Below, in pieces: positions 4,532-61,400 of a stretch of 64,000 nucleotides of DNA. The notes below the pieces were generated by a model. It had not been told where the DNA came from. It did not search any database and was given only the letters and a program-made list of their open reading frames with translations. This DNA is from Planctomycetaceae bacterium. GTDB lineage: Bacteria > Planctomycetota > Planctomycetia > Pirellulales > UBA1268. The stretch lies in NCBI GenBank assembly GCA_902629495.1, contig CACORA010000009.1:5837-69836 (forward strand), read 5' to 3'. Every line of letters begins with the position of its first letter. Position 1 is the stretch's first letter. The translations under genes were made by a program, and so were the position numbers.

Positions 4532-5179
4532 CTAGCGTCTGATTCCAGTCCGTGCTGTTACACCAACCATTGTGTCCCGTGTGTTCCCTCCCGGGAGCGA
4601 CCAAATACCTGTTTCAGCAGACTGCTTCGCTTGCGCTTCTGCTTTACCATCGAAAAAGAGTATGGCTCCACGACGCAAACGACGCTCAATACGAGGTCCA
4701 ACCTGAATGCGAACAACATCTTTGACATCTGTACTGAGCAGGAACGTACGAAATTCGATCACTTCACGACCATCAACGTGCTCAGATTCAAACCGCAGCC
4801 CTCCAACCCATCTGGTAAGTCCATCCTGAATAACATCGGGAGTCGTTATAACGCCGGCACTGACGTCGAGATCACGAATTCGACTATGTAATTCAGTTGT
4901 AAGTGGTTGCGTAGAACCGGATTTGCCAGAAGGTCCTCGGACCTTCACATCAAACGGTATTGCTTCCGGCGGTTTTGCAGACATTGAGCGACGCATAAGA
5001 CCAGCAATGGAGCCTGATCCGCTGAAGCCTTCAAGACCAAAGCCTTCGAACACCACCGGAGGAACTTCACTTCGACGCGGAGCGCTTGCATCAGCAACAC
5101 CGCCCAAGAGAAGGAGCGAAAGGCTCACACTTATGACTGCACGATACACCATGCTGAAAACACTCCGCCTTGTTTCCAT
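4532..5179 (-). CDS. Small exported protein of unknown function
   Basis: The 215-residue protein has a clear N-terminal signal peptide: an Arg-rich start, a hydrophobic stretch (AVISVSLSLLLLGG) and an ADASA cleavage region. The mature part has no motif I recognise. It is rich in beta-forming stretches and charged Arg/Asp residues, and ends with a Gly/Thr-rich segment (TRDTMVGVTARTG) that could be a beta-strand. The ATG at 5179 has AAGG five bases upstream; an internal ATG at 5152 would leave the signal peptide intact. It lies 69 bases after the lipid A-linked oxidoreductase gene, in the same direction, and may be the last gene of that envelope operon. An envelope or periplasmic location is the only supportable inference. 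Confidence 0.65.
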   Translation of the reverse strand: METRRSVFSMVYRAVISVSLSLLLLGGVADASAPRRSEVPPVVFEGFGLEGFSGSGSIAGLMRRSMSAKPPEAIPFDVKVRGPSGKSGSTQPLTTELHSRIRDLDVSAGVITTPDVIQDGLTRWVGGLRFESEHVDGREVIEFRTFLLSTDVKDVVRIQVGPRIERRLRRGAILFFDGKAEAQAKQSAETGIWSLPGGNTRDTMVGVTARTGIRR

Positions 5180-5248: not shown

Positions 5249-6331
5249 TCAACCGGTTTTACGGTGCTTTAAGAATGAATGAACCACCGATTCACTGGCG
5301 ATTGGCACGACCGCCGGCCCCTGCGAAGCACCAAACTGCGATTTAGCTAGAGCATCGAGCACTCGTCCAGCAATTTCAATGGCTGCAGCCCCACCAGATG
5401 CTGGCACCACTGGAGCCTGACCGGTTTGAATACTCTCAAGGAAATTCTCATGCTCACAGGCAATTGCATTTGCCTCTACCGCCGTTTCAGTGCGGGTCGG
5501 AAGAATCTCAGAAAAAAAAGAGTCTTTCATCGCCTGACGCTGTTCCACCGGAATGTCACTTGCCACAAAACTCCCATCCCGAACGCAGGATGAGGGAGTC
5601 ATTGTTGTCACTGTTTTTTCATTGAAGTCGACATCAACAATGCTGCCTGTCGAAACGAGTGAAAGAGAACGACGGACTGCGGGATGTATCCGTGAGGCAA
5701 ATAAATCTGCAATGATTCCTGACGAGAACGACAACCGAGCCCGAACCAAATCCTCATGTCCCCCTGTTGCCACGAACCCTTGCGCCTCAACACTCTCCAA
5801 TCGCCCCGGCTCAAGAGAAAGAACAAGATCAATGTCATGAATCATCAGGTCGAGCACGACACCCACATCCATCGAACGAAAGGTGAACGGTGCTTGACGG
5901 TGCGCCTGAATAGCAACCAGCTTTCCAACGTGATCCATCGCTAACTTCCATGCGGGGTTAAATCGCTCCACATGACCTACCGCAACCGTCCGACCATACC
6001 GTCGAGCAGCGATAACAATTGCTCGAGCATCTTCAACCGTCGATGCCAAAGGCTTTTCAACGAGCAAATCGACACCACTTTCCAACAATGGAATTGAAAT
6101 CGGTGCATGCAACCCTGTTGGTGCTGCTACGACCGCAGCGTCAACCTTTCCGATGAGATCTTCTGGACTCGCAAAACCTTCACAACAAAGCGATTTGGCA
6201 ACTGCACCTCTCGGGCCTTCGCAAGGATCAACAACACCCACGAGCTCAACATCAGACCGCGACGAAAGCAATCGTGCATGTATTGCACCCAAATGACCAC
6301 ACCCAACTACTCCAATTCGAATACGACTCAT
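5249..6331 (-). CDS. Gfo/Idh/MocA family NAD(P)-dependent sugar oxidoreductase
   Basis: The N-terminal Rossmann fold has GVVGCGHLGAIH (residues 7-18), then the family EKP motif (VEKPLAS) and the substrate-domain motifs GHVERFNPA and DLMIHDIDLVL. This combination resembles the MviM-type oxidoreductase found inside lipid A clusters of other bacteria (lpxA-lpxI-mviM-lpxB in delta-proteobacteria), as far as I recall. The start codon overlaps the stop of the LpxA-like gene by 4 bases (ATGA), so it is translated from the lipid A operon. A role in modifying a UDP-sugar for lipid A, like GnnA that makes the 3-amino sugar, is possible but not shown by sequence. Length (360 residues) is normal. Confidence 0.88.
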   Translation of the reverse strand: MSRIRIGVVGCGHLGAIHARLLSSRSDVELVGVVDPCEGPRGAVAKSLCCEGFASPEDLIGKVDAAVVAAPTGLHAPISIPLLESGVDLLVEKPLASTVEDARAIVIAARRYGRTVAVGHVERFNPAWKLAMDHVGKLVAIQAHRQAPFTFRSMDVGVVLDLMIHDIDLVLSLEPGRLESVEAQGFVATGGHEDLVRARLSFSSGIIADLFASRIHPAVRRSLSLVSTGSIVDVDFNEKTVTTMTPSSCVRDGSFVASDIPVEQRQAMKDSFFSEILPTRTETAVEANAIACEHENFLESIQTGQAPVVPASGGAAAIEIAGRVLDALAKSQFGASQGPAVVPIASESVVHSFLKHRKTG

Positions 6332-6636
6332 GCTGCCCTCCGTTGCTCACGACTTCTCACATGCCACCCACTCTGCTGACGGCTCACAAACCCAAGAAGA
6401 CGCCCAACATCTGGCATGAGCATTTCCCGAGAAGCAAGAACCTCTCTCACCGAATCAACACCAACTTTTGCGCGAAAAAGCAAGCGACAGGATTCACTCA
6501 TTGCGCCGATTACCACCTGCAAAAATCTGCCCCGCTGCACCCCAACACTCTTGATACACCGATGCCGATCTGGCATGCCCTCAGACAGACATACACCTTC
6601 TTGAACCACGACTGCGGGATGAATCGTTACTGACAT
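6328..6636 (-). CDS. Internally deleted LpxA (UDP-GlcNAc acyltransferase) remnant
   Basis: This 102-residue frame sits exactly where lpxA is expected. Its ATG overlaps the lpxC stop by 10 bases (ATGTCAGTAA) and its TGA overlaps the next start by 4 (ATGA). Residues 1-20 look like the first turn of LpxA (MSVTIHPAVVV, compare IHPTAVV). Residues from about 21 on look like the LpxA C-terminal helical domain: MPDRHRCIKSVGVQRGRF matches the NPARxRGxNxxGLKRRGF region, and LLFRAKVGVDS...MPDVGRLLGFV matches the final helices. The hexapeptide beta-helix between them, roughly 150-170 residues with the catalytic His, is missing without loss of frame. It cannot act as an acyltransferase as read. The alternatives are a real deletion, an assembly artefact, or a short protein reusing the trimer-forming ends. 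Confidence 0.7.
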   Translation of the reverse strand: MSVTIHPAVVVQEGVCLSEGMPDRHRCIKSVGVQRGRFLQVVIGAMSESCRLLFRAKVGVDSVREVLASREMLMPDVGRLLGFVSRQQSGWHVRSREQRRAA

Positions 6637-7526
6637 TGCCCAGCACCCCCAACCCCCGAGACGTTGATACCACCATATTCCTCGGCAATTAAGCGTGCCA
6701 CCATTTCCGCATTTAATTTGTGGCCACTACGACAGGCTCGTACTGATGCATAGACAGGCCGCCCAACAAGCGACAGATCACCAACAACATCAAGCACCTT
6801 ATGACGCACACATTCATCATCCCACCGCAACGTATTACCAATTGGACCAGACGGGCCAAAAACAAGCAGATCTCGATGCCCCACCGACAAACCACGACCG
6901 CTAGCCTGCAGACGATCCGCCTCCTCAACGGGAAGAAATGTACGGGCCGACGACAACTGATCTCGGTACGCATCAGGCGTGACATCAACACGCATGCTTT
7001 GCCTGCCAATCGCTACGTGACCATAGTCAAGTTCATATTCAACCGAGAGACCCGGGAATTGCGGCGGCCCAACCTCTATCCAACTTATATCATCACCAAG
7101 ACGAATGACCCGTGACACAACAAGCGGCACAACAGGGGCCCCTAGCTCCTCAAGCCCCACTTCGTCAATCGCATCAACAAATGCACGAGATGATCCGTCA
7201 AGCCCCGGCAATTCTTCAGCCGTTACATGCACTTCACAACAATCAACATTCAGACCAGAAAGAGCACTCAACACATGCTCCACCATCTGAACACCAACCC
7301 CTGCAACAGACAGATTCGTCCGAGTAGCTGCATCGACTCGGTACTCCACCGAGGCTGGAATCCGAACGGGAACCGGCAAATCATCCCGAACAAACACAAC
7401 ACCCGAACCAATGGACGACGGACGCAACTCAACCCGATTGGGGCGACCACTCCAATAGCCAACCCCAGAAACTTCTGCCGTTTGGCGAAGCGTATGCTGA
7501 GGTCGTACAACTAAAGTTTCTGGCAT
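6627..7526 (-). CDS. lpxC: UDP-3-O-acyl-N-acetylglucosamine deacetylase
   Basis: LpxC removes the N-acetyl group from UDP-3-O-acyl-GlcNAc, the committed step of lipid A synthesis, in the cytosol. All zinc ligands are visible: H84 (MVEHVLSAL), H242 and D246 (RHKVLD), plus the catalytic H269 (SGHKLN). The substrate motif PGLDGSSRAFVDAI is also intact. The ATG at 7526 was chosen because family homology begins at MPETLVVRPQHTLRQT; a start at 7574 would add 16 unmatched residues. The protein is about 299 residues, the size of stand-alone LpxC, with no fused FabZ domain. It is followed by the deleted lpxA with a 10-base overlap and preceded by the OmpH gene about 100 bases upstream, so these form one operon. 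Confidence 0.95.
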   Translation of the reverse strand: MPETLVVRPQHTLRQTAEVSGVGYWSGRPNRVELRPSSIGSGVVFVRDDLPVPVRIPASVEYRVDAATRTNLSVAGVGVQMVEHVLSALSGLNVDCCEVHVTAEELPGLDGSSRAFVDAIDEVGLEELGAPVVPLVVSRVIRLGDDISWIEVGPPQFPGLSVEYELDYGHVAIGRQSMRVDVTPDAYRDQLSSARTFLPVEEADRLQASGRGLSVGHRDLLVFGPSGPIGNTLRWDDECVRHKVLDVVGDLSLVGRPVYASVRACRSGHKLNAEMVARLIAEEYGGINVSGVGGAGQCQ

Positions 7527-7630: not shown

Positions 7631-8248
7631 CTATCTCACCGGAGGCTGCTGCGCGGCTCCTGCCACAGGCGTTCCGTTGAGCATTTTGAGGATGTCTGGA
7701 GTGATATCGATACCTGGCTCATAGTACACAATAGGCTTCGTGATGCCCCGCATGATCTGGTTTCGATCAGCTGAATCAACAGGCTCTCCATCAAAACGAT
7801 GGACTACAGCAATACGATGCTCTTTGGCAAATTGAGCCACAGCCTTTTCGACTTCGTCGTACACCTGCTTGTACACTCGCGCCTCTCGCTCCATGAAATC
7901 CTTTTTCTGCAACTGAGCGTTCACATTAAAGTCACCCTGAGCCTTCGCAATTTCAGCCTCAAGTCGCTTATATTCTGCCGTACCGACATTGAATCCCTTT
8001 AGCTGCTCCATCAAACCGTTGATTCGATCTCGCTCAGCCTTCAGGCCGTTTTCAGCCGTCATGACTTCATCTTTCATCTGATCCATAGCAGACTTAAATC
8101 GTGCATGGTTCTTAAATATGTACCCAATATCGACCACAGCCACATGCGTGGCAGGACCAGCAGGCTGGACAGGAGCCTGAGCGAACACGGGAACCGATAT
8201 GGCTACCCCAATGACAAAACACATGATGCCAAAAAACTGCCTTTTCAC
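7631..8248 (-). CDS. OmpH/Skp family periplasmic chaperone
   Basis: The protein starts with a signal peptide (KRQFFGIMCFVIGVAISVPVFAQA), followed by a short beta segment (VAVVDIGYIFKNH) and a long helical stretch rich in Glu/Lys/Gln (about residues 60-140). This is the Skp layout: a trimer body with coiled-coil arms that hold unfolded outer membrane proteins. A second beta segment (IAVVHRFDG) closes the body. The GTG at 8248 was chosen over ATGs at 8266 and 8296 because AAGGAG lies 8 bases upstream and the signal peptide then begins directly. Skp genes next to lpx genes are common in diderm bacteria, and the next gene downstream is lpxC. The C-terminal tail after residue 185 is low complexity. 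Confidence 0.88.
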   Translation of the reverse strand: MKRQFFGIMCFVIGVAISVPVFAQAPVQPAGPATHVAVVDIGYIFKNHARFKSAMDQMKDEVMTAENGLKAERDRINGLMEQLKGFNVGTAEYKRLEAEIAKAQGDFNVNAQLQKKDFMEREARVYKQVYDEVEKAVAQFAKEHRIAVVHRFDGEPVDSADRNQIMRGITKPIVYYEPGIDITPDILKMLNGTPVAGAAQQPPVR

Positions 8249-8497
8249 GAGAAGCACTCCTTGCATGGCGTATGGACGACCATTGAGCACCATCACTCCA
8301 ACAGTGACCGAGGCTCAATTCGACGGGGATCATTGCAATCTTGCCACGCTAGCTCAATGCCAAAAAAAGACTGATTTCAGCAAGAAAACGAAAATTCTGA
8401 TCGTATTTTACTGATTTGCCTCACCGCTGGCTGGAACGAAGGAAAAGCAAGCAGGCCACACCAACGCTTCACGCTCTCGTACGATGCCACACTACGA

Positions 8498-12260: not shown

Positions 12261-13224
12261 GCACTCGATCCATATCGGCAGGCATGGGGGCATTGAAGGC
12301 GACGGATTCCTGTGTGTGTGGGTGTATGATCTCAAGGGCAGAGGCATGAAGTGCCTGACGGCTGAGTAGGGGCGTTGCTTCCCCCTTTGAGTTTGGGGAC
12401 AAGCCCAAAAAAGAAGGTTCAAGAACCGTGCGACCTGAGTACAAACTATCACACAGTACTGGACAACCAATTGCTGCCATATGAACCCGAATCTGATGTG
12501 TTCGACCAGTACGTGGCGTCACCTTAACAATCGCTGCACCAGAAAAACGTTCAAGAACCTCAAAACGAGTTACTGCTTCACGACTGGTTGAGTGATCTCG
12601 ACGCACAGCCATTTTTTCTCGTTGATACGGATGAATTCCAATTGGCAAATTAATTTCATCACGATCGAGCTGTGGACATCCTTGAGTAATCGCCAAATAT
12701 GTTTTTTTGGTCGTCCTTTGCTCAAATTGTTTGGCAATCGCATGATGTGCTTCTTCATTTCTTGCAACGACAATCACACCACTTGTATCCCGATCTAATC
12801 GGTGAACGATACCTGGCCGAGTAGCACCTCCAGTCGTTGATAAACCAACTGTTGCTGAGCCAACATCTCTTTCAAGATGCCATTTCAGGGCACTGGCAAG
12901 AGTACCTTTCCAATTCCCTTTCGCAGGATGCACGACCATTCCCGCTGGCTTATTGACGACCGCTAGCCAGTCATCCTTGAACAGAAATTCGAGCGGGATG
13001 TCTTCGGCCTCAGGCCCTGCTCGGGGGGGTTCTGGCACGGTAAAACGAATCGTCGATCCATGCTTTAGTTTGGTTGAAGCACGGGCCTGAACACCATCAA
13101 TGCGAACTCCACCTTTATCGATAGCACGGGAAAGATATGAGCGACTTCTGTTGGAGAAACGTGTTGCAAGAAATTTATCTAAACGAATGCCCACGTCTTG
13201 TGAATCAACCACAAACGTCACCAC
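12238..13224 (-). CDS. RluA/RluD family 23S rRNA pseudouridine synthase
   Basis: An N-terminal S4 RNA-binding domain (RLDKFLATRFSNRSRSYLSRAI, here cited to I only as the start of the S4 helix) precedes a catalytic domain with the RluA-family motif GIVHRLDRDTSG. The Asp of RLD is the nucleophile that attacks uridine C1'. RTGRTHQIRVHMA is the conserved motif III. Of this family RluD-type enzymes modify helix 69 of 23S rRNA, but the exact target cannot be fixed from sequence. I chose a GTG at 13224 (EVVTFVVDSQD) because the longer frame from 13356 would run through the tail repeats of the upstream gene in another frame. That upstream gene stops 20 bases before, so the two are co-transcribed. Confidence 0.88.
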   Translation of the reverse strand: MVTFVVDSQDVGIRLDKFLATRFSNRSRSYLSRAIDKGGVRIDGVQARASTKLKHGSTIRFTVPEPPRAGPEAEDIPLEFLFKDDWLAVVNKPAGMVVHPAKGNWKGTLASALKWHLERDVGSATVGLSTTGGATRPGIVHRLDRDTSGVIVVARNEEAHHAIAKQFEQRTTKKTYLAITQGCPQLDRDEINLPIGIHPYQREKMAVRRDHSTSREAVTRFEVLERFSGAAIVKVTPRTGRTHQIRVHMAAIGCPVLCDSLYSGRTVLEPSFLGLSPNSKGEATPLLSRQALHASALEIIHPHTQESVAFNAPMPADMDRVLKALRGL

Positions 13225-13243
13225 TTCGCCAGTAGCCCACTCA

Positions 13244-14029
13244 TCAGGGTTCGCGTGATTTGGCACTGGCTTCGGCAGCCCCTTCGTCCTTGGCAGCCCC
13301 TTCGTCCTTGGCAGCCCCTTCGTCCTTGGCAGCTCCTTCGTCCTTGACCGAAACACCGGTTTGCGGATTATCTAAAGCGGCGTCTTCAGAGTTTTCAGCT
13401 CCCTCAACAGACGTCACAAATGACTGAGCTGAAAACCAATCGTACCACTGCTGCGTTCCCTTCAGGGTAAGGTCAGTCGCTCGAGTCTTTGCCAACCGAG
13501 AAAAGCCACTGTTTGTACTTTCAGTGGATACCACCTCATACCCTCGACGAGCATCCTCGAACTGACCAAGACTTTCTCTCGCTTTTGCCAGACCAAACGT
13601 GGCTCGTGTTGCCAAAAGACCTTGAGGACGCGAAGCCAACACCGATGAATATCCATCCACAGCTGACTGCAATCGCGCGCGGCCTTCCTCCTTATTTGAA
13701 AAAAGAAGATCTGTTCCTTCGTTCACAGCAAAATCAGCTAAAATCACCTCTGACCACTGAGATGCTGACGTTCCAGGATACCGAAAAATAACATCGTTGA
13801 GCGAATCAACAAGAAGAGGCTGACTGTCACTCGCGATAGCATCGAGAAATGCGTCCCAGCTCTGTGACCGCCCTGCTGATGTCTGGTTTGAAATAAGCAT
13901 CCAGGCAACAAGCAGAACCGCTACTCCGCCCACTCCCAGCAAAATAGCATTTGCATGAGGACGTAATCGATCCATGAAATCAAGTAGTTTTTCAACAAGC
14001 GCATTGTCCGGATCAATCTTTGGATCCAT
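13244..14029 (-). CDS. Membrane-anchored TPR-like protein with a KDEGAA-repeat tail
   Basis: An N-terminal cytosolic stretch (DPKIDPDNALVEKLLDFM) is followed by one transmembrane helix (AILLGVGGVAVLLVAWMLI) and a helical domain of about 150 residues with TPR-like spacing (ATRATFGLAKARESLGQFED). The layout resembles YfgM-like ancillary translocon or envelope proteins, a tentative comparison. The C-terminus has four exact or near-exact KDEGAA units encoded by an 18-base tandem repeat. The ATG at 14029 has AAGGAG 11 bases upstream and is preferred to 14173, which would add an unlikely Cys-rich N-terminus. It directly precedes the pseudouridine synthase gene. Function is unknown. Confidence 0.65.
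   Translation of the reverse strand: MDPKIDPDNALVEKLLDFMDRLRPHANAILLGVGGVAVLLVAWMLISNQTSAGRSQSWDAFLDAIASDSQPLLVDSLNDVIFRYPGTSASQWSEVILADFAVNEGTDLLFSNKEEGRARLQSAVDGYSSVLASRPQGLLATRATFGLAKARESLGQFEDARRGYEVVSTESTNSGFSRLAKTRATDLTLKGTQQWYDWFSAQSFVTSVEGAENSEDAALDNPQTGVSVKDEGAAKDEGAAKDEGAAKDEGAAEASAKSREP
13274..13345 (-). repeat. Four tandem 18-base units coding for KDEGAA
   Basis: Four back-to-back 18-base units (plus-strand unit GGCAGCCCCTTCGTCCTT) run from 13274 to 13345; three are identical and the fourth differs by one base (CCC to CTC). They encode the acidic/alanine tail of the membrane-anchored protein. Such a repeat can change copy number by slippage without breaking the frame, because the unit is a multiple of three. 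Confidence 0.95.
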
Positions 14030-48107: not shown

Positions 48108-51100
48108 TTAGGTGCTGAGTCCAGCATCTGGAAGATCAATGGTCGAGTCATCTGGATCCAAACTGTTGTCTGGATCTGAGATGCTTCGAATGTACTCCGC
48201 CGTCAACATGATCTGGTAGGAACCCGACTGGGTTCGGAATCGGCTTGGTAACGTCAGCATGTATCTTGCACCATCGACATTTGTCAGCGTCGAGCCACGC
48301 AGGGAGACCGTTCTCCCATTGTGAACAAAACGGACAACGTCCATCACAACACCGCTGACGGCCTGATTGAAGTCAAGATAGATGGAGCTACCATTTGGCA
48401 ATCGAGGCCCCCACGACCCCACAACTGAAACAGGAGAGGATCCTGTGGCTTGTAGAACGTGAATACTCAGCGGATCACTTTGTAGTCCATTCACCTCTGC
48501 GGTGAAATGGTGCGTACGGTAACCAAGCCCAGTGACTGACAATGACCAGGTTCCATCTGATTCAGACGTGACAAGTCCCAAGATGGTCGTTCCATTCCGA
48601 ACAGTAACAGCGCTATTTGGCTCTGACGCTCCACCCAGCACAAGGCTTGAAGAATTCGTATTTCCATTATGGGAGATCGTTTGAGCTGTCTCTGGGTGGA
48701 CGGCCTGAATCGTAGGCGCTGTTACAGGGCCCTCAGGATCACCAGGATCACCAGGATCACCAGGATCACCAGGACCACCAGGATCACCAGGGCCACCAGG
48801 GCCTGGGGCATCTCCTTCGAAGACAACTTGATAGGCCTGGCCTAATGGGCTGGAGTTACCGGCGATGTCTGTCGCAATCGCACGGAACGCATGAGCCCCC
48901 AACGAACTCAAACTCACTGATGGGGTCCATGACCATGCTCCGGTCTCACTGGCTCGAGCATCAGCAGGATTCAACGGATCCAGCAGCACCATTTGTTTAT
49001 TTGGAAGGAAGGCAACAACATTGACCGTACTTCCGGCCTCTGCAGTTCCTGAAAGGGTCGGCGAGAAGTCATCTGTAGAGCCACCGTCGGCAATACTCGT
49101 ATCGTCACCTGGATCAGTTGTGTTGTTATCGTCCGTTGCATTCGTAATGATTGGTGCACTTGGTGCTGCTAAATCAACAATAACACGGAATTCTCCAGAA
49201 CGTCCAACTCGTCCGAGAGTATCTGTGACCATCGCTTCCACATCCACGGGAACAGAATCGCCAGATGCAATATTCAGTTTATTTGCATTCAGAATCCAAT
49301 TCCCGACCGAATTAGCAACCGCTGAACCTAATACTTGCTCCTGATTGTTGAATCTGGCAACAACACGAATGACTGCATTCGGGCTCGCCGTTCCCTGCAT
49401 GACAAGAGTCAGGTCATTGGTTCCCGCGCCGTAGCTCACTTGCCCTATGACGGGCAACGCATTATCACGAATCTCATCAATGGTCACAGACGGGGCAACC
49501 GAATCAACCTCGATGTCAAACGGCACTTCACTACTTGTGTTACCGGCCCTGTCAATTGACTTAAAGGCAAGTGAACGAACACCATCTGCTAGACCAGGCA
49601 TCTGGAACGACCATCTACCATCCTCCTGAACCTGCTCCACGACTTCGTAAGGGAAGACATCCCAGCCCACCCAGATAAAGCTCCCGGGTTCTGCCACGCC
49701 ACTGACAAGAGGCGTGGCATCATCGGTGACTTCACCATTTCTAAGAATTCTCCGAATGATTCCTTCATCATCAAATACGGTGAACCCTGAGAGCTCTGGC
49801 GGAGCCGTTATGTCAACCACCCACACATCAACGTTTTGACGATATGAACTTGTTGCAGTACTGGTACTACCGTCACTCGGATCTAGACGATCAAGATGTT
49901 GACGCACCTGAATCGCACCTACCTGATATGATCCTTCCGCGAGGTCAAAGTGACGCGTTTGCCGCACCTCTCCATCGCTCCCAAGACTCACAATGCCGCC
50001 ATTCGAATCGTTCAGTTCCCAACTTGCAGAATCGACTGGTGACGTCGGCAATGCTGGAGATGTTTCCGCAAAAACAAGCGTTCCATCTTCCAACACTTCA
50101 AGAATATCGTGGGCTTGACCGTTGATGGTGATTTGCCACACCGCGTCGGTTGAGTTGCCATCATCCACATCCTTCTGCGAGACAATGCCATAGGCATTGA
50201 AATCAGTATCAGAGGCTGTCGAAAAACGCAAATCTGGCGTGCCCCACGATCCACCAGCATTGAGAGAATACTCCCACCTGATCGTTTCATTGACATCCGG
50301 AGAGAGAATATCTGACACAATGACACGGGGATTCTTGGTCAGATTATCAGAGAACGTTGTGAGATCCCAAAGAATCCCTGTGTCCTGCTGCAAGGCGAGG
50401 CCAGGCACTTTCAATGGGGTCAGTGGTCCCACTTCAGTCCAATCGCTCGCTCCCATCACATTGATCGCTCGCACACGGAACCGGTATGCATCACCTGAAG
50501 ACAGACCAAGCTCAACGTGCGTTGTATCAAGTGGATTTGAAAGCAGATCAGAACTCCAAACACCGTCTTCACGTTTTGACTCAAGTTGATATTGCGTAAT
50601 CGGTGATCCATTGGCAAATGCTTGCCATTCAAGACTGACCTGACCTTCGTCAGCCAATGCTGTGGTAAACACGGGTGCATTCGGCGCTGCGACAAGTGAC
50701 ACATCAAAAGAGATGGTTCCACCCGTTGCATTTGGCAAGACCGTATTGCCTGCCAGGTCTGTCAGGAATGCTGCCTCCGTAGCACTTCCGTTGCGAGACG
50801 TCACGTTGATTGTGTACGTACCTATCGGAAAGACGACAGCTGAATCAAAGACCACTCGATTTTTTGTCTCAAGGTATCGGAAGAAGTAATGCTCTCCCTC
50901 AACCAATGTCTGTATATTCCCTGAACCAGGAAAATCAGAATACAGAATTTCAAATGCGTCAGCCAAAACGGTCGCTTTGTCAATTCCCGCCCCAATATCA
51001 TCCAATTGCAAAACGAATTTTAGCTGACCTTTTGCATTGGCATTGCTTAATTTGACGACACCCCGACGCCCATCTTCATCATGTGTTGAGTTATCCAACG

Positions 51101-54100
51101 GCACCGCAATCTGAATCGTTGGTTGTGTAAAGTCCATACGATCGATGGCCCCACGGTCCGTGAAGACATTGGAACCAAGTCCTGTGCCGATGGATGCAAC
51201 ATTCGGATCATCTCCTCGCAATTGTCCATAGATATCTCTATCTGGGGCAAGTATTGGAGACTCCGGTATACCAACTTGATTGTTGACAACAACAAACTCA
51301 TTTCTGTCTTGCAAGGCATCGATAGCACTATCGATAGCCCTTGATTGAGGCGCGAGGTAGAAATTACCTCGATCCACATCGACAAATGGATCCGTGCCCA
51401 ACGTAATGGAATTTGTCACAGCGGCTGCTCCGGCTCCACCGCCGCCCATGCCACCGCCTCCACCACCGGCTCCACCACCGGCTCCACCACCGGCTCCACC
51501 ACCGGCTCCAGCGGTAACCTGCGTGATCACATTGTGGAACGCTGAATAGCCGATGACTGTACGACTATTACCAAGTCCATCGACAAGAGACGTCCCATCA
51601 ACAAGAACGCCAGATTCAAGGCTAGCGAGAAGATTATTGAGTAATGTAGGGGCTGCATTGTCTTCGACTTCGATACCAATCCCTCGTGGGTTATCTTGAT
51701 CATCAACGCCACCAAAGATTGTGTTATTGATAATCCGTCCATAAGGAACCGACCCAAGCGGGGCTGTGTTCCCCTCTGAGTTATCATCTCCACTGAAAAG
51801 AATACCGGCTGTTCCGCTTACTGAAATCACATTGTTCGTCACAACCACACCAGGGACAAGACGTCCATCATTCAGAGTTGGAAGGTGACGGGCAACTCCC
51901 GGCTGGAGTGGCACAAAGCCGTTATCGCGGGATGCATCAATACGAATGCCGTAGACAGAAGCATCTGCAATAAAGTTGTTTTCGATGAGGAAACGCCCTT
52001 GGTCTCTGGTAAGATTCTGATCACCAACAAGGCCAACGTTTTGTGCTCGTGGTGCCGCTGTAATGATTGCGTTTCGAAGTGTGATACCACCCCCTTGATC
52101 AGCAGGGCGCGATCCAGACTGAAAGAACCCGATACGCGTATCGTCGGTGAGATGACTGTTTCCAGGCGGCAGTTGGCCCAGTATTCCATTCAGGGCTGCC
52201 ACAAGATCGATGCGAGCCGTTTGGAACGTCTGCCCCGTGAGGATTGAAAAGAGATCAGCCGTGGGATCGACCGCAGTAAATTTATAGATGGAGTTCCATG
52301 TCGTACCACCATCAAGGCTGATCGCGATACCGTCACCTGCAGGCACGTGGTTGTCTTCTACGACGAGCGTGCCAGGATCGTCACCGATCGTAAATTGCGA
52401 TGGCAACGGAACCACGGGCTCGTTCGGAGAAATTTGAGGAAAAGCGAACACATCCCACGTTCCAGCCTGATAGTCAACCTCAAGAAATGCTGATGACTGC
52501 CCCGCAAGCTTCACGGCCCATGTGATCGCATTGAAGTCAGATGTACTTCCGCCATTTCCTTCCATTCGAAGAGCATCTTCAACAAAATCGAAGTCTGTAT
52601 CGACAGCCGTTATCTGACCATTTCCAAGCGTTGTGAGACTGTCCCCAAGGGCTGAGAGGGCATGTCTCCCAAGCACGATATCCGGAGTGGCTGCAGCCTG
52701 AATACGGCGTGCATTCGTATCAAAGACTTGTTCTGGTTGAATCGCAATCGAGTCACGCCTCGGAGTAATGGAGCTCATGATTTCAGCAAACTCCGCACCA
52801 CGCCGAACCTCGAGTTGATACTCACCCTCCAGCACCTGCTCAGGATAACCCGGACTTCCCGTTGGGGTATTGATATTGAAGAAGTTCTGATTCGTCGCAG
52901 CGTTTGTCACCATCTCGCCACGCTCGGCAAAGCCTACAATGATGTCATCAATGTAAAACCCTTCATGATCATTATTAGCACTGGCAACCTGAACGTTTTC
53001 GCCGTCGCCGATTGCTCCCTCAGGCCCAGGAATGTTATGAAGATTGACACCCGTACGATCAGGGAAGAAGGCAACCGCTTCAGCAGCCTTGAATGAGACA
53101 TTCGATGCACTCTGAACCGTCACCGTCACGACACCTGAGTTCGGATCCGTAGCAATGGCGGTCACGACCGCAGTGCCTTCCGGTACCGTGAGAATATTGT
53201 CTGCAGATGTGAGGGGGTCGGCCCCTGGATCAATGACTTGCGGATTGGCTCCATGCCATCGTTGAACCCGCATGCCAACCTGCATACCAGCGGCTGAGTC
53301 CGTTTCAAAGGTGAACTCCAATGGATTTAATGGATTTCCCGTGGCAACCGCGTCACTCATCACACTCCGAATAGCTGCCGGTGTCGCAGTGGCGTTGTGA
53401 TTACTCAAATTCCGCTGAAAATCACCACCCGTGCTAAAGTCAAAACGCAACTGAATATTTGACTCTCCAGCAAATTCACCGATGTCAATTCTCGCCTGTC
53501 GCCATTCCCCGGTATTATCAAAGAGTTCCTGAACCTGCTGATTTGGCAAGGTTCCAATCCGTGCTGACGTCGACAGATGGATGGGCAGCTCAGCATTACG
53601 TTGACTGTTATTGGTTGCCAAGAGTTCCCATGACAGGCCACCGTCTCGAGAGGCAAAGACGCGAGCACTGTCTCGCATCACATCGGCTGCGATCGAACTG
53701 TTTGCACCTTCCGTCTCAAGGAAATAATTGAAATACAATGTTGGCTTGTCACCATAGTCATACCCGGCCAGGCTAAATGGATTGGTGATCATGCTGCCAC
53801 GGGCACCGCCAGGCAGGTTATAGGTGTTGCCAAGGCCACCCGCATTCAGATCCTGTGCCCAGTTGTACTCTCCACCAACTGTACCAACGGTACCAAACTG
53901 CCCTGCAGACGTTCCAAACACTTCATCATTTCCACCCCAGTCATTTAGACCAAAGTACATGCTCACGCCACCTTGTGTCCCAGTCGTACGCGCATGATCT
54001 GCAGTTGGATTGATCCCATGTCCGGGGTCATTGTTTCGCTGTGTCGTTGGGTGCCAGAGATTGATATCCAGCGGGGAAACGGCAAGGCCTCGAACGCCTC

Positions 54101-57100
54101 CCAGACGCTCATTCGAAATCCATGAATCCCCGATGCCATCGCCATCCGTGTCGAACACGTTATCGACAACAGCGGCATTCCCATTCCCGGCCCCGTCAGG
54201 ATCAATGAAGAAGACACCACCACCTTCGGTGATCGCCATGAACATGCCCTGATACCGACCACCTTCAAGATTCACCGGTGCGGTCGCAAGACCCTGTAAC
54301 GATCTTCCATTCAGGAGCGGCGAGAAATCACGGGCATCACTGATTTGGAGGGCATCACGAAAATTCCCCGTAACGTTAAATTCACCAGCCGTTGCCCCAG
54401 CACGCGCTCGCGGGTTCCGCGGAGTAATTCTATAGAACTGGCCACCTTCACTTACTCCATACAGCGCATCGTCATCACGGATTTCATTTCTGAATTGCAG
54501 GCCTGTCGTGAATCCTGTAATCACAACAGGGTTTCCACTGCCATCAACATTGTTGCTGTTGACTCCGGCTGTGTATCCAATAGCTGGAACACTCTGCGAA
54601 AGATCAATGCCTGTTGGAATGAATCCCATCCGGCCAAAGGTATCACTTGGTGCAGTAGTATTAGCAGCAATCGGGGTACTGGCATTGCCTGCGTTATCTC
54701 CGGCATACAACACAGACCGTGATCCAAACGCAAGCACGTGGTTATCGTCTCTCATCGAGTAATAGACAGATGCTTCCTCAGCTTCATTAGCGTCTGCGTT
54801 GTAGACACCCGGTCCAGAACGACCGATGGCAATGGCATCCCTCGGTGCATTGCTGATGTTGACAGCATTCGAATCCGGTGGTGGATTACCACCGGCATCA
54901 GCCACCACCCCGTCCGTCCAACGGGCTGTACGGGCTCCTGTTGCTGGGTCAACATTCCACACCGTCCCAACGCTGCCGGCCCGATCGTAGAGCACCAGGG
55001 TGCCATCAGTCAGCATGTCCAGATCACCCGCAGTAGCACCCCAACCACCATATGCATCCGGCTGATCCGGAGCACCTGTAAAGGGATTGATCGCTCGCAG
55101 GCCTCTGGTCGTTGCCACAAAGACTGTCAGATCATCCAGCGTAAATGGAGCAACATTGGCTTGCAAGGCAATATTGGATGAAAGATCAATGATTGGCCCT
55201 GACACAGGCGTGACGGTTTGCCCACCGCTGACGTACCCAGTTGTTCCAATATGATCTTCAACAATTCTTCGAACAGATGCGACCGGTTCAAGACGAATCG
55301 ATGCATCCGTTGCCGCCGACTGGAGTGTCGCATTGAGCACTGTGGGAAGCTGTTCATTACTGGATACAGCAACATAATAGGTCGTTGTGTCACCGGGAAT
55401 ACCAGCTTCCAGATGGACCGAACCAATGTACGGATCCAACATTCCAATAGAACCGCGCGAGAGATCATCAAAATCATGCGCCTGACCAACCCCCGGCTGA
55501 TCATCTGCAATATTCGAATCCCGACCAACATAGATCAAGGAACCAGTTGCATCAAAAACAGAAAGTGTGAGGTCACCCTTGAATCCATCGGCATAGTCAA
55601 TGTCAAACATTGCCGCCCATGTCTTGGCCTCGTCATTGACATTCTGAATAACTTCGATGTCCGCATAGTCAAGCGTAAATGAGTACCAATCAATATCAGT
55701 CGCATTGTCCATGGTGCCAGCAACGCTGATTGTGTTGCGATCTGTCTGCAACAGGTTGCCCAACGCCTGCGCCTGACCAAACGCGTCATTCGCCGCTGAC
55801 TGCTCACCAGTTTCCCCAACAAGCTGGGAGTGATGCGGCAGGCCAATGACATCAATGCCAATCGTTGGGAAGCGAATATCCGCATACCGAACCGTGGAGC
55901 CTGCTTTTTCGTCTCGCTGTCGTTCTCGGATCCTCAGTTCGTATCGACCGCTGCTGGCTCCGACAGGATTGGCAAGACCCGCTTCATATTGCGCCGGTGT
56001 TGTGGTTGATGAATAGGCTGACTGACTTCGCACTCGAACAAAGTACTGGGTTTCCACACCCGTCTGTCCGGGAAGTGTCACCCGGAATCCAGGATTCCGT
56101 GGATTCGCAGAATACATGTCCACTCCACGATGGTCATCCTTATTTAAGGACATCCCGCCACCTTCACCCGTCAGGGAAAACCCAAGGGTGGTCGCCGAAA
56201 CGTTCCCATACTCATAGGACAACTCGATCCGCGAAGTTCCTGTTGGCACATTATCAAAGGGCAATGTGATCAAGCCTGCTGCATAATCAATCGTTGCCGA
56301 CGCATCAACCGCTCGAGCTGAAGGATTTCCAATCGGCGTAAACGTAAATGCTCCATCTCGGGCAACGGTGAATGTTTGAATGGCTGTTTCATCAACATAC
56401 AGCACACCTGAAAGTGTTCCGGGAAGAATATTGGCATGGGGAATCTGGAAGGTACGGGTTCCAAAATACAGTGTGCTACCATGCTCAACATCAATAGACT
56501 GACTCAACACGATTTCATCAGATACAGGATCCACTGACTGCACCGTCGTCCCAGGCAGCACACCAAGCTCTCCATCAGGACGTGGATTCGCCAACACGGC
56601 TCCATTCAACTCGATATTGTCAGCATCCGAAACAAGAACCGTATCGCTGTTGAAGCCAAACCCAAGGATGTCGCCGTTTTCGACGACAACCGGCTGATTC
56701 CCAACCGCGTCTGGGTCACTATCCAATACAATCGTCGCCCCAACACCAACATCATCCGGTATGACCTCGATGACACGTGTTCCGGCTGGAATGCCGTCTG
56801 CTCCATTCACAAGAATTCCCGTTTTGATCACCTCACCGTTGACATCAAATCGGTCTGGGACATGGATGCGTGTTGTGGCAATCGGTCCTGTGAATGCAGG
56901 ATCTGAAAAGGAAAATCCAATAATATCGTCTTGCTCAAACCCAATGTCATTGCTCAGCGTAACCGTGCGAGAGGCTTGATCAAATCCGGCAACTGTTCGA
57001 GACAACAGAAATCCATTGAGGGTTACCGCAGATCCGATTTCAGGATCAACCGAATCATCAATCCGGATGCGATTCGTGGTAACTGTCTCACCAGGAACAA

Positions 57101-58175
57101 AATCAAAACCAAGGAAATCCCCATCGGCAACATCAAGCGTATCTGAAAATGTCACCAGGCCCTCTGTCATGCCAGAGAGTGCAATCGTATTTACTGTCAG
57201 CGGATTGCCAAGCGGATCAAGCGCCGCAACACCATTGACGGTGACTGTAACGCCATCACCATCAAAAATACCGTTGTACGCATCTGTATCGATGGTGACC
57301 GTCGTTTGATTGAATCCAAATCCAAGCGTGTCACCATTGGAAATGGTCACAGCCTGATCCAACAGAACCGTACCGCCTGTTCCAACGGCATCAGGATCAA
57401 CGCTGACAACACGGGTTCCAGCAGGAACATCTGAGCCGGCAACGCCATTGAAAAGACTCACCAGCACGCCATCAGCAACACCACTCGCATCGCTCACATG
57501 AACACGTGTTGTCGACGTCGGGCCGGTAAAGGAAAATCCAATAATATCGTCGTCGTCAACGGTAATCGTTCCACCAAGCTCAAGGGTCACGGTACGCGAT
57601 GTAGGATCAAAGCCTCCAGCCGCCACGTCGAAGCCACTATCCGCTCCGTTGATAAAGACATCCGCACCATCCGTCGGTGCCACCGAATCATCAATCCGGA
57701 TGCGATTCGTGGTAACTGTCTCACCAGGAACAAAATCAAAACCAAGGAAATCCCCATCGGCAACATCAAGCGTATCTGAAAATGTCACCAGGCCTTCTGT
57801 CATGCCCGAGAGTGCAATCGTATTTACTGTCAGCGGATTGCCAAGCGAATCAAGCGCCGCAACACCATTGACGGTGACTGTAACGCCATCACCATCAAAA
57901 ATACCGTTGTACGCATCTGTATCGATGGTGACCGTCGTTTGATTGAATCCAAACCCAAGCGTGTCACCATTGGAAATGGTCACAGCCTGATCCAACAGAA
58001 CCGTACCGCCTGTTCCAACGGCATCAGGATCAACGCTGACAACACGGGTTCCAGCAGGAACATCTGAGCCGGCAACGCCATTGAAAAGACTCACCAGCAC
58101 GCCATCAGCAACACCACTCGCATCGCTCACATGAACACGGGTTGTCGGTGTCGGGCCAGTAAAGGAAAAACCTAT
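48108..58175 (-). CDS. Giant multidomain secreted protein, C-terminal part (after frameshift)
   Basis: This is the second reading frame of the giant gene, open from about 58175 to the stop at 48108. Going toward the C-terminus it holds: the tandem GVPxGT modules with the 633-base repeat (58175-56400); a jelly-roll/PPC-like segment (55720-55330, DIDWYSFTL); a propeller-like segment (about 55150-53940); a domain like secreted-protease jelly rolls (about 53940-52900, FASRDGGLSWELLATNN); a right-handed beta-helix (52800-51530, NNFIADASVYGIRIDAS); a glycine-rich linker; an FN3 domain (50700-50400); and Bap-like Ig domains (about 49800-48830). A GPGDP-type linker and a last Ig-like domain follow. 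No sorting signal, dockerin or PEP-CTERM motif is at the end. The apparent GTG start at 58130 is internal and not a true start. Confidence 0.85.
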   Translation of the reverse strand: MGFSFTGPTPTTRVHVSDASGVADGVLVSLFNGVAGSDVPAGTRVVSVDPDAVGTGGTVLLDQAVTISNGDTLGFGFNQTTVTIDTDAYNGIFDGDGVTVTVNGVAALDSLGNPLTVNTIALSGMTEGLVTFSDTLDVADGDFLGFDFVPGETVTTNRIRIDDSVAPTDGADVFINGADSGFDVAAGGFDPTSRTVTLELGGTITVDDDDIIGFSFTGPTSTTRVHVSDASGVADGVLVSLFNGVAGSDVPAGTRVVSVDPDAVGTGGTVLLDQAVTISNGDTLGFGFNQTTVTIDTDAYNGIFDGDGVTVTVNGVAALDPLGNPLTVNTIALSGMTEGLVTFSDTLDVADGDFLGFDFVPGETVTTNRIRIDDSVDPEIGSAVTLNGFLLSRTVAGFDQASRTVTLSNDIGFEQDDIIGFSFSDPAFTGPIATTRIHVPDRFDVNGEVIKTGILVNGADGIPAGTRVIEVIPDDVGVGATIVLDSDPDAVGNQPVVVENGDILGFGFNSDTVLVSDADNIELNGAVLANPRPDGELGVLPGTTVQSVDPVSDEIVLSQSIDVEHGSTLYFGTRTFQIPHANILPGTLSGVLYVDETAIQTFTVARDGAFTFTPIGNPSARAVDASATIDYAAGLITLPFDNVPTGTSRIELSYEYGNVSATTLGFSLTGEGGGMSLNKDDHRGVDMYSANPRNPGFRVTLPGQTGVETQYFVRVRSQSAYSSTTTPAQYEAGLANPVGASSGRYELRIRERQRDEKAGSTVRYADIRFPTIGIDVIGLPHHSQLVGETGEQSAANDAFGQAQALGNLLQTDRNTISVAGTMDNATDIDWYSFTLDYADIEVIQNVNDEAKTWAAMFDIDYADGFKGDLTLSVFDATGSLIYVGRDSNIADDQPGVGQAHDFDDLSRGSIGMLDPYIGSVHLEAGIPGDTTTYYVAVSSNEQLPTVLNATLQSAATDASIRLEPVASVRRIVEDHIGTTGYVSGGQTVTPVSGPIIDLSSNIALQANVAPFTLDDLTVFVATTRGLRAINPFTGAPDQPDAYGGWGATAGDLDMLTDGTLVLYDRAGSVGTVWNVDPATGARTARWTDGVVADAGGNPPPDSNAVNISNAPRDAIAIGRSGPGVYNADANEAEEASVYYSMRDDNHVLAFGSRSVLYAGDNAGNASTPIAANTTAPSDTFGRMGFIPTGIDLSQSVPAIGYTAGVNSNNVDGSGNPVVITGFTTGLQFRNEIRDDDALYGVSEGGQFYRITPRNPRARAGATAGEFNVTGNFRDALQISDARDFSPLLNGRSLQGLATAPVNLEGGRYQGMFMAITEGGGVFFIDPDGAGNGNAAVVDNVFDTDGDGIGDSWISNERLGGVRGLAVSPLDINLWHPTTQRNNDPGHGINPTADHARTTGTQGGVSMYFGLNDWGGNDEVFGTSAGQFGTVGTVGGEYNWAQDLNAGGLGNTYNLPGGARGSMITNPFSLAGYDYGDKPTLYFNYFLETEGANSSIAADVMRDSARVFASRDGGLSWELLATNNSQRNAELPIHLSTSARIGTLPNQQVQELFDNTGEWRQARIDIGEFAGESNIQLRFDFSTGGDFQRNLSNHNATATPAAIRSVMSDAVATGNPLNPLEFTFETDSAAGMQVGMRVQRWHGANPQVIDPGADPLTSADNILTVPEGTAVVTAIATDPNSGVVTVTVQSASNVSFKAAEAVAFFPDRTGVNLHNIPGPEGAIGDGENVQVASANNDHEGFYIDDIIVGFAERGEMVTNAATNQNFFNINTPTGSPGYPEQVLEGEYQLEVRRGAEFAEIMSSITPRRDSIAIQPEQVFDTNARRIQAAATPDIVLGRHALSALGDSLTTLGNGQITAVDTDFDFVEDALRMEGNGGSTSDFNAITWAVKLAGQSSAFLEVDYQAGTWDVFAFPQISPNEPVVPLPSQFTIGDDPGTLVVEDNHVPAGDGIAISLDGGTTWNSIYKFTAVDPTADLFSILTGQTFQTARIDLVAALNGILGQLPPGNSHLTDDTRIGFFQSGSRPADQGGGITLRNAIITAAPRAQNVGLVGDQNLTRDQGRFLIENNFIADASVYGIRIDASRDNGFVPLQPGVARHLPTLNDGRLVPGVVVTNNVISVSGTAGILFSGDDNSEGNTAPLGSVPYGRIINNTIFGGVDDQDNPRGIGIEVEDNAAPTLLNNLLASLESGVLVDGTSLVDGLGNSRTVIGYSAFHNVITQVTAGAGGGAGGGAGGGAGGGGGGMGGGGAGAAAVTNSITLGTDPFVDVDRGNFYLAPQSRAIDSAIDALQDRNEFVVVNNQVGIPESPILAPDRDIYGQLRGDDPNVASIGTGLGSNVFTDRGAIDRMDFTQPTIQIAVPLDNSTHDEDGRRGVVKLSNANAKGQLKFVLQLDDIGAGIDKATVLADAFEILYSDFPGSGNIQTLVEGEHYFFRYLETKNRVVFDSAVVFPIGTYTINVTSRNGSATEAAFLTDLAGNTVLPNATGGTISFDVSLVAAPNAPVFTTALADEGQVSLEWQAFANGSPITQYQLESKREDGVWSSDLLSNPLDTTHVELGLSSGDAYRFRVRAINVMGASDWTEVGPLTPLKVPGLALQQDTGILWDLTTFSDNLTKNPRVIVSDILSPDVNETIRWEYSLNAGGSWGTPDLRFSTASDTDFNAYGIVSQKDVDDGNSTDAVWQITINGQAHDILEVLEDGTLVFAETSPALPTSPVDSASWELNDSNGGIVSLGSDGEVRQTRHFDLAEGSYQVGAIQVRQHLDRLDPSDGSTSTATSSYRQNVDVWVVDITAPPELSGFTVFDDEGIIRRILRNGEVTDDATPLVSGVAEPGSFIWVGWDVFPYEVVEQVQEDGRWSFQMPGLADGVRSLAFKSIDRAGNTSSEVPFDIEVDSVAPSVTIDEIRDNALPVIGQVSYGAGTNDLTLVMQGTASPNAVIRVVARFNNQEQVLGSAVANSVGNWILNANKLNIASGDSVPVDVEAMVTDTLGRVGRSGEFRVIVDLAAPSAPIITNATDDNNTTDPGDDTSIADGGSTDDFSPTLSGTAEAGSTVNVVAFLPNKQMVLLDPLNPADARASETGAWSWTPSVSLSSLGAHAFRAIATDIAGNSSPLGQAYQVVFEGDAPGPGGPGDPGGPGDPGDPGDPGDPEGPVTAPTIQAVHPETAQTISHNGNTNSSSLVLGGASEPNSAVTVRNGTTILGLVTSESDGTWSLSVTGLGYRTHHFTAEVNGLQSDPLSIHVLQATGSSPVSVVGSWGPRLPNGSSIYLDFNQAVSGVVMDVVRFVHNGRTVSLRGSTLTNVDGARYMLTLPSRFRTQSGSYQIMLTAEYIRSISDPDNSLDPDDSTIDLPDAGLST
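48729..48807 (-). repeat. Collagen-like Gly-Pro-Asp linker repeats
   Basis: On the plus strand the 9-base unit CAGGATCAC recurs, with variants, across 48731-48795. It encodes a Gly-Asp-Pro/Gly-Pro-Gly linker between the Bap-like Ig domains and the last Ig-like domain of the giant protein. Confidence 0.9.
51425..51513 (-). repeat. Glycine-rich linker with 12-base units
   Basis: The stretch encodes a run of Gly with Ala and one Met in the middle of the giant protein. On the plus strand GGCTCCACCACC recurs in tandem from about 51468 to 51509 (four units). It separates the beta-helix region from the downstream Ig-like part and is probably a flexible spacer that can vary in length. Confidence 0.9.
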
Positions 58176-58402
58176 ACGTCATCGTTGTCGGCTAAAACCT
58201 GCCCACCAAGCTCAAGGGTCACGGTACGCGATGTAGGATCAAAGCCTCCAGCCGCCACGTCGAAGCCACTATCCGCTCCGTTGATAAAGACATCCGCACC
58301 ATCCGTCGGTGCCACCGAATCATCAATCCGGATGCGATTCGTGGAAACCGACTCACCAGGAATAAAATTAAAGCCGAGGAAGTCACCATCGGCAACATCA
58401 AG
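57049..58402 (-). repeat. Tandem duplication, 633-base period, inside the giant gene
   Basis: Bases 57049-57513 recur at 57682-58145 almost without change, and 57575-57770 recur at 58207-58402. The first spacing is 633 bases (211 codons) and the second is 632, so one base is missing between 58146 and 58207. The unit codes for two GVPxGT-type modules that begin with HVSDASG and end with the DDDDIIGFSFTG strand. Near-identity at DNA level points to a recent duplication or to ongoing gene conversion. Confidence 0.95.
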
Positions 58403-61400
58403 ATTGCCACTCAGATTCACTGTGGTGCCAGTAATGCTTGCGACCGTGATCCCGGTTGCGGCTCCATTGTGCAACACAGTTGATCCGACAAGACCTCCGG
58501 CAAATAAACCTGTATCAATCTCGACCGCTGACGCATTCGAACCAAACCCAAGTACATCTCCCGACGAAACTGTCACCGGACTTGAAAACTCAACGATAGC
58601 TTCAGAGCCTGTCGTGGCAATCACATCACTCACACGTGTTCCAGCAGGGACGCCGCCAGGCGCACCACCAGTCACCAAGGCACCGACGGTGATCCCTGAA
58701 CTATCGGCGACCGTGATTCGAGTCGTCGTCTCCGCGCCAGCAAAGGAGAAACTCACCACGTCACCGCCTTCAATAGGAGCCTGAAGATTCCCGCTCAGGG
58801 TGACTGTCAATCCATTATTGGCAGCGACCGTTACACCTTGATCCACACCATTAATGAAGAAACGTTCCCCCGTTTGGGCGACTGCTTCTTCAATGACAAA
58901 CTGCGTACCAATAAAACCAAATGTGAGTTGGTTTCCTTGCTGTGTACCGACGAGGTTGTTCAATTCAATGACGTCTCCACTTCGATTCAGAATACGAGTA
59001 CCCTGAGGGACTCCCGGACCGGTCACGCCAGCACCAGGATTCGCCCATAGCGAATCAACGATAGAAAAGAAGCGGCTTGTGATAGTCTGGTTCGGAACAG
59101 AAAACGTTAGAAATGTACCAGCCTGAAGCGTTACTGCATTATTCAGGGTGACTGTACTCCCAACAATCAGATTGACTGTTGTATTGGCCGGAACGCCAGG
59201 CCCGGTTACGACGGCTCCATTTTGAATTACAGAAGGATCGGCTACATCAAAACTAGCATTTGCGTCGACAGCAAGAGGGACCGACGTCACTGCCCCATTA
59301 ATAACCGACGACTGCCCAACGACACTGGCAGCAACACGATTCACACTTTCTTGCTCTCCATCGACCCGAGCGGATACGCCATCTGAGGCAGCCGCCACCT
59401 GATCCGCAACTTCCTGTTGACCACTGACCCGAGCTGCCACGCCACCTGCGCCTGCTGCCGCCTGATCAATGGCTTTCCGAGCACCAACAGCCTCCGCCAC
59501 AACGCCATTTGTCATCGCAGCAACAGCATCAACTGGTTGCTGCTCTCCCGCAATGGTGGCCTGAGAACCCGAGAGCACTTCCGACACAACACGATTTTGC
59601 TCAACGACAACATCATTGAGTGAATCTGCGGACCGCGCAATCACGCTTCCACTTGCATCAACAAGCTCAAGCATGGCATCCAATGATGGGCCTGTGTTAT
59701 CCACATCAATCCACACTTCGGAACCCGCATAGCCGGTAAATGCATAGACATCGATATCACCTGGATTGTCGTAGGCGATACTTCCGTGTACCTCAAAACC
59801 CTGACGAAGAGACTCATCACCACTTTTTTCCTGAGCAGACTCCCAGGAATTCATGGTCCCCTGATCATTTGTCGTAGCGAAATTGGGCGCAAGCGATCCA
59901 AGGACCTGTGCATCATCAATAAAACGATTTGAGTCAATACCACTGACAACGTCCGCTTCACGTTCAACGAGAATGGAAACATTCCGATCATTCGAAAGCG
60001 GCTCAAACCGGACACTTCTCCAATCACCTGCTTCGGGGGATGTCGATGCCCCATCACCATTGGTATCACGGACAACTTTGCCCAGAGCATCGAGACTTAC
60101 ACCCACCGTATCATCAGCAAGTGATGTAAGCACGACAGGATAGCCCGCCTGCCCAACAAGTTGGACAGTACCTCCAATTCGGTCATCAATGTCGAGAGCC
60201 GTCCCTGTTGCTGTAAAACCGGCCTGCGATCCTTGAAGTTTGACAACAAGACTTCCATCCGAATCACTGAGAAGCCGCAAACCCGTCTTCGTGTGAAAAT
60301 TGTCAACATGGATTTCATTCCGGACCACATGCACAATATCTGTATCATCCCACACACTCTCAACAGTGATTTCTTCACCTCGGACAACCATGCCACTGAT
60401 GCCTGTTGAAACTCGGAGCGCTTCCAGGGCAGCCGCGACATTGAGAGACCCACCAGTTGCAACACGACCAGCTAATGCGGGATTCGGAACAGCACTGCTC
60501 AGAATGGCATCACGAATCTGTTCTGCACTTGCATTTGGATACGCAGATGCCAGAAGACCAACGGCGCCTGCAACATGGGGTGCCGCCATCGACGTTCCAT
60601 TCTTAGTGTCATAACTATTGCCTGGGATTGTGCTGTAGATGCCCTCACCAGGAGCACCGATGTCGACCGTCGTCAACCCCCAATGCGACCCAGAACCGGG
60701 CGTGCCAGGGGGCCTACCGTCCCAGGCAAGTTGCCCACTACTGGTAGTGTTTGCGACAGAAATAATCAAATCGTTGTCGTAGGTACTTGGAAAATCTGGA
60801 ATAATGTCGTTATCTTGCTGATTGTTGCCAGCGGCAGCAACAAAAATGACTCCCGCATCACAATGTGCATCAATGGCATCTCCTACCAACTGGGAGGTGG
60901 GGCCAGGTCCTCCATAGCTATTATTCGAGGCTACAATATTGACTCCTCGTTGCTTCATCATTGTCACATAGTTGATTGCACCAACGATACTGCCGACTGA
61001 CCCATCTATTTTCAGTGCCATAATGCTGGTGTTCCAATTGACACCAGCAACTCCCAGATTGTTATCCCCCACTGCTCCAATAGTGCCTGCAACATGCGTC
61101 CCGTGTGCCAACCAGACGGCATCGTCATCCATTGGATCCTTGTCATCATCACCGAAGTCCCACCCATGGACATCGTCAGTTTTTCCGTTGTTGTCGTTAT
61201 CCTCGCCATCACCAGGTATCTCACCTGGATTTCGCCACATATTGGCAGCAAGATCCTCGTGGTTGTAGTCAACACCGCCATCAATAACAGCAATCACAAC
61301 ATCACGTGAGCCAGTGGTGACATCCCACGCATCCGTTGCATCGATATCGATGCCCGCAATGCCTCCATTCTGTCCTGTGTTTTCGAGCCCCCACAACTCA

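Follow-up and report, generated by a model that had tools for sequence, protein, structure and literature searches.

The 102-codon frame that lies between lpxC and a Gfo/Idh/MocA oxidoreductase gene in a 64,000-nucleotide stretch of Planctomycetaceae DNA (the window, below) is very likely what remains of an lpxA gene that had a paralogue elsewhere and was caught while being lost, with lipid A synthesis probably continuing through the other. An in-frame deletion of 498 bp removed residues 17–182 of the lpxC-linked enzyme (LpxA1), that is, nearly all of its left-handed β-helix together with the catalytic histidine, and the tail left behind is now decaying. Such a loss would be bearable since the family usually carries another lpxA (LpxA2) away from lpxC, the sole LpxA in several genomes. 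The deletion left the start of the Gfo/Idh gene in its coupled position. The case looks less like a new lipid A chemistry than like a spare gene being lost in the ordinary way. A pathway to lipid A that seemed to lack its first enzyme is no longer a puzzle, as family genomes usually carry two lpxA paralogues.

What is left of LpxA1

The initial annotation had placed a 102-residue frame between lpxC and the Gfo/Idh gene, overlapping its neighbours by 10 and 4 bases, and all of this is found (Table 1): the lpxC stop and the remnant share 6627–6636, and the remnant and the Gfo/Idh start share 6328–6331. Across the 64-kb window, no RNA family reached its gathering score.

Table 1. Genes and gene remnants around lpxC in the window
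Feature	Position	Strand	Evidence or remark
OmpH/Skp-like gene	7631..8266	(-)	Upstream of lpxC; profile matches
lpxC, intact	6627..7526	(-)	PF03331, E 1.1e-74; start codon taken at 7526, within a mechanical ORF from 7574
Remnant of lpxC-linked lpxA (LpxA1), 102 codons, in-frame	6328..6636	(-)	ORF, alignment, conservation
Remnant of the LpxA N-terminus, residues 1–16	6589..6636	(-)	Weak match by itself
C-terminal 86 residues of LpxA, PF13720 helical domain	6331..6588	(-)	77% identity to intact P0132
Deletion junction	6588..6589	(-)	498 bp (166 codons) gone relative to a 268-aa LpxA; position uncertain by a few bases
Gfo/Idh/MocA oxidoreductase, intact	5249..6331	(-)	Downstream of the remnant

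The product had been described as the start of LpxA joined to its C-terminal helical domain, with about 150–170 central residues absent, and this description holds. Alignment with related LpxAs, the check that had been proposed, pairs residues 17–102 of the remnant without gaps with the last 86 residues of the intact enzymes. Identity over this tail is 77% to P0132, an intact protein of 267 aa that ranks first among the 120 matches listed, out of 7757, to the L001 LpxA (a closer intact relative may be among those not listed), and 60% to the LpxA of L001, the closest lpxC locus in the genome collection (LpxC identity 71–72%); L001 and its near relatives together give 57–60%. Residues 1–16 match the start of LpxA weakly. 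The L001 enzyme has 268 aa with its Met, so the missing part, residues 17–182, measures 166 residues.

At the level of profiles, PF13720 matches residues 16–90 of the 102-aa protein (E 1.8e-4; 22.3 bits, cut-off 24.5), and the NCBIfam LpxA models give weak matches to the same stretch (18.9 of 226 and 16.2 of 231.05 bits). PF00132 hexapeptide repeats find no match in the 102 residues at E up to 1; these β-helix repeats are present in the L001 LpxA1 and in the LpxA2 of locus L089. The region of the catalytic histidine is gone, as had been claimed, the motif H-x-x-H-D being absent from the remnant and present in all 120 LpxA1 proteins examined. In E. coli LpxA (1lxa) the aligned positions carry the same H-x-x-H-D, whose second histidine, His125, is the catalytic one. 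The remnant belongs to a known enzyme family: like LpxA (TIGR01852, NF003657, PF13720), it has over residues 17–102, by alignment with intact relatives though with a PF13720 score just short of the cut-off, that enzyme's C-terminal helical domain, and it occupies the same gene place as in relatives; unlike LpxA, it has neither β-helix nor catalytic histidine and reaches 16–19 bits against cut-offs of 226–231. Devoid of nearly all of the left-handed β-helix and of the catalytic histidine, its product, judged by the known LpxA mechanism, cannot be a working acyltransferase; the deletion itself is shown by the sequence.

A direct repeat at the deletion ends was considered, since the P0132 protein carries L-A-E-G near residue 16 and L-S-E-G at 182 and thereby suggests a short one, but in the DNA of L001, L010 and L013 the longest strings common to both sites are 6–7 bases and lie off the junction.

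The locus in relatives and the decay of the tail

The LpxC of the window is 99% identical to P0002 and 93% identical to P0003, named 'Pirellulales bacterium' in NCBI; protein similarity places the organism within the Pirellulales or close to them. Among the best 80 of 348 lpxC loci, a near-complete lpxA (at least 246 of 267 residues matched) directly follows lpxC in 66; together with the intact P0132, this bears out the view of the initial annotation that a full lpxA was once present and lost its core. As for the other 14, L028 is cut by a contig end (32 residues matched), L055 ends too early for the presence of lpxA to be decided, and 12 are without lpxA (L043, L054, L056, L058, L059, L061–L066 and L069). 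In these 12 there is no trace of lpxA between lpxC and the Gfo/Idh gene; the two genes are direct neighbours, with the start of the second estimated at −7 to 132 bases from the stop of the first. On an unrooted LpxC tree the 12 absences amount to three changes, at least two of them by well-supported branches, and none adjoins the window; the tree being unrooted, some of the absences could be primary. Low G+C is at most a hint of a correlate of the loss: the window has 50.2% and L001 65%, and six of the 12 lpxA-free loci have 50–51% and the other six 52–64%, but those at 50–51% form one clade, and L076 and L077 keep lpxA at 51%. In the same tree several loci titled 'Candidatus Kuenenia stuttgartiensis' (L001, L010, L012, L014, L015 and others) fall among Planctomycetaceae/Pirellulales, and from this position their titles look mislabelled.

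Both overlaps had been regarded as kept from the full gene, which proves right for one of them. The 4-base overlap between lpxA and Gfo/Idh occurs in 62 of 65 intact loci and is ancestral. The 10-base overlap with lpxC, on the other hand, is unlike the arrangement in L001, where the ATG matching the start in the window lies 17 bases after the lpxC stop and an upstream in-frame GTG would overlap that stop by 4 bases.

The tail that remains has changed far more than intact tails do. We compared it, and that of P0001, a second 102-aa protein of the same kind, with 121 intact LpxA1 rows (L001 and the 120 best of 7757 matches to it, a set that favours conserved sequences), across which 48–50 positions of the tail reach a conservation of 90% or more. 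Of 48 such positions the window stub breaks 12 and P0001 breaks 15, whereas no intact row breaks more than 5 (median 1; P0132, 5 of 49). Relative-rate tests against the one intact relative P0132, made with ten overlapping and non-independent outgroups, give 11–13 changes in the window stub versus 1–2 in P0132 (p 0.002–0.023), and 14–16 versus 1–2 for P0001. The same is seen when tail identity is set against LpxC identity: window and L001 share 60.5% of the tail at an LpxC identity of 71.7%, whereas 181 intact pairs with LpxC identities of 67–77% have a mean tail identity of 76.5% (sd 6.5, minimum 61.6); P0132 against L001, at 72.1%, is ordinary. LpxC has evolved fast here as well (on the LpxC tree, 0.21 for the stem of the window clade versus 0.04 for its sister), and P0132 is a control for this only on condition that it shares the window's lineage, as its tail, the one indication, suggests. 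The two stubs differ from each other within the tail alone, and of the four replaced residues three fall where intact enzymes are at least 96% conserved. Taken at the protein level, rather than as dN/dS, these comparisons show a stub tail that is decaying, under relaxed constraint relative to its intact orthologues.

That the frame stays open and coupled had been presented as a retention in need of explanation, a view that these results do not support: the stub changes rapidly, conserved positions included, and its frame can be expected to be open still. Few changes have occurred so far and, of the 918 possible single substitutions, only 27 create a stop, so the open frame is unremarkable and needs no selection to explain it. 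An in-frame deletion keeps the Gfo/Idh start in its coupled place, which may have favoured its survival, and coupling might also keep the frame of the stub open.

A second LpxA in the family

An LpxA-like protein with 38–43% identity to the L001 LpxA is encoded away from lpxC in 14 of 15 genomes (partial in G011, absent from G013). By best E-values, 66 of the 72 genomes in the family of G001 have this LpxA2, the six without it being G023, G026, G043, G045, G048 and G074. Five of those six have LpxA1, which the stub query matches in 59 of the 72; of the 13 genomes without an LpxA1 match, 12 have LpxA2, and only G074 (1.8 Mb, presumably incomplete) has neither. Single absences weigh little, as the family genomes carry no completeness values; LpxA2 is split or cut by contig ends in some of them (G011, G037, G019). 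No truncated lpxA was found in the 72 genomes of L001's family, the listed matches all lying in open frames of 269 aa or longer.

Two proteins exceed the curated LpxA cut-off in G001 and G019, and one does so in G003, G005, G007, G008, G012 and G013. An LpxA2-type protein is over that cut-off in seven of these eight genomes tested, and in the eighth, G013 (locus L080, Candidatus Laterigemmans baculatus), the single LpxA is of the LpxA1 type; in G005 (locus L062, Blastopirellula marina) the LpxA shares 41% identity with LpxA1 and 54% with LpxA2. With G013 having LpxA1 only and other genomes the LpxA2 type only, either type can be the sole LpxA found. H-x-x-H-D is kept in all nine LpxA2-type proteins read, and both LpxA2 proteins that were scored individually are over the LpxA cut-off. 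LpxB is matched in 65 of the 72 genomes (over its cut-off in 48), so the lipid A pathway as a whole is the rule in the family.

By analogy with these relatives, whose genomes made up the comparison, the window organism would also have LpxA2. The loss of LpxA1 is tolerable because LpxA2 is usual, a statement that is observed for the relatives and presumed for the window organism, where lipid A synthesis probably continues through LpxA2. The initial annotation had left the choice between another lpxA, another acyltransferase and an altered lipid A; the first of these is favoured, by inference from the 66 of 72 genomes. Duplication of lpxA is on record, for example in Geobacter sulfurreducens (PMC3087551), and the family genomes here similarly have both types or one. 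What differs is that one copy is caught here part-way, as an in-frame stub, and that 12 of 80 loci are without trace of it. Among the papers listed by searches of an open-licence library, none had a title about two lpxA copies in Pirellulales. On our preferred reading, the stub records one lpxA loss in progress, and the pattern of LpxA1 and LpxA2 supplies natural pairs for comparing the enzymes.

Alternative readings of the stub and a possible change of chemistry

An assembly artefact, in which about 500 bases of an intact lpxA were collapsed or skipped, might be considered since the source may be a metagenome assembly, but we regard it as extremely improbable. P0001, also 102 aa and 96% identical with 4 substitutions, comes from sources ncbi and lgn with one contig listed, and a second protein of this kind makes an assembly error unlikely, even if P0001 stands for a 90% cluster of 16 sequences among which the window's own protein may be included. 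(The protein search with the 102-aa sequence, in which it was the one relative found, admitted only lengths of 0.55–1.75 times the query, so full LpxAs were not to be expected from a 102-aa query.) Decay of the tail is, furthermore, an effect that a collapse would not cause, and no direct or inverted repeat of at least 14 bases lies in the window between 6100 and 6900. Somewhat less improbable, yet still unlikely, is that the 102-aa protein is kept for a new role, be it as a small helical protein or as a bridge whose translation couples lpxC to Gfo/Idh. The two stubs, 4 residues apart, are both open, and the open frame and the Gfo/Idh overlap, itself so common in intact loci, are kept, as such a role would have it; rapid change at conserved tail positions in both stubs argues against it, as do the small share of nonsense among single substitutions, which makes an open frame unsurprising, and the 12 lpxA-free loci, which keep Gfo/Idh close to the lpxC stop without any bridge.

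That the organism has no other LpxA, its lipid A being absent or altered, we consider very unlikely. In its favour, the window shows only part of the organism's genes, and six of the 72 family genomes are without LpxA2; five of those six have LpxA1, however, and a genome with neither occurs once (G074), while LpxA2 and matches to LpxB are found in the great majority and the lpxC beside the stub is intact. A further comparison is offered by Planctopirus limnophila, a planctomycete outside the family studied here. Almost all of its lipid A genes, lpxABCDKL, are reported to be essential (PMC10632474), and this too speaks against an organism without LpxA. We return to the loss of one paralogue, LpxA1, with LpxA2 probably serving in its place.

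Whether this would be a mere loss of a spare gene is a separate matter. The loss of LpxA1 with LpxA2 kept might instead amount to a switch of lipid A chemistry, which we consider improbable. The best solved match of LpxA1 is E. coli LpxA (1lxa) and that of LpxA2 is 3hsq, the Leptospira LpxA, which acylates the 3-amino sugar UDP-GlcNAc3N. The best NCBIfam model for the Gfo/Idh gene beside lpxC is UDP-GlcNAc 3-dehydrogenase (173.6 of 450 bits, below cut-off), from which the gene may be GnnA-like. GnnA is described as an enzyme that oxidises the 3-OH of UDP-GlcNAc, after which GnnB transaminates (PMC5644692). If a switch had taken place, LpxA2-only lineages might have lipid A with amide-linked chains, and the stub would capture the change under way. 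The two solved matches and the 3-dehydrogenase-like neighbour thus raise the question of whether LpxA1 and LpxA2 acylate different sugars, while the ordinary loss of a spare LpxA1 is the reading we prefer.

Downstream of the Gfo/Idh gene, at 4532–5179 on the minus strand, lies a 215-aa secreted-looking protein that neither Pfam nor NCBIfam matches at E up to 1. L001 has a relative of it at the same place (12881–13486; 182 residues aligned at 59% identity), which makes it a conserved unknown in the lpxC–Gfo/Idh neighbourhood. Elsewhere in the window, two very long open frames on the minus strand, 48108–58130 (3340 aa) and 58172–64000 (1942 aa, running off the window end), perhaps encode giant surface proteins.
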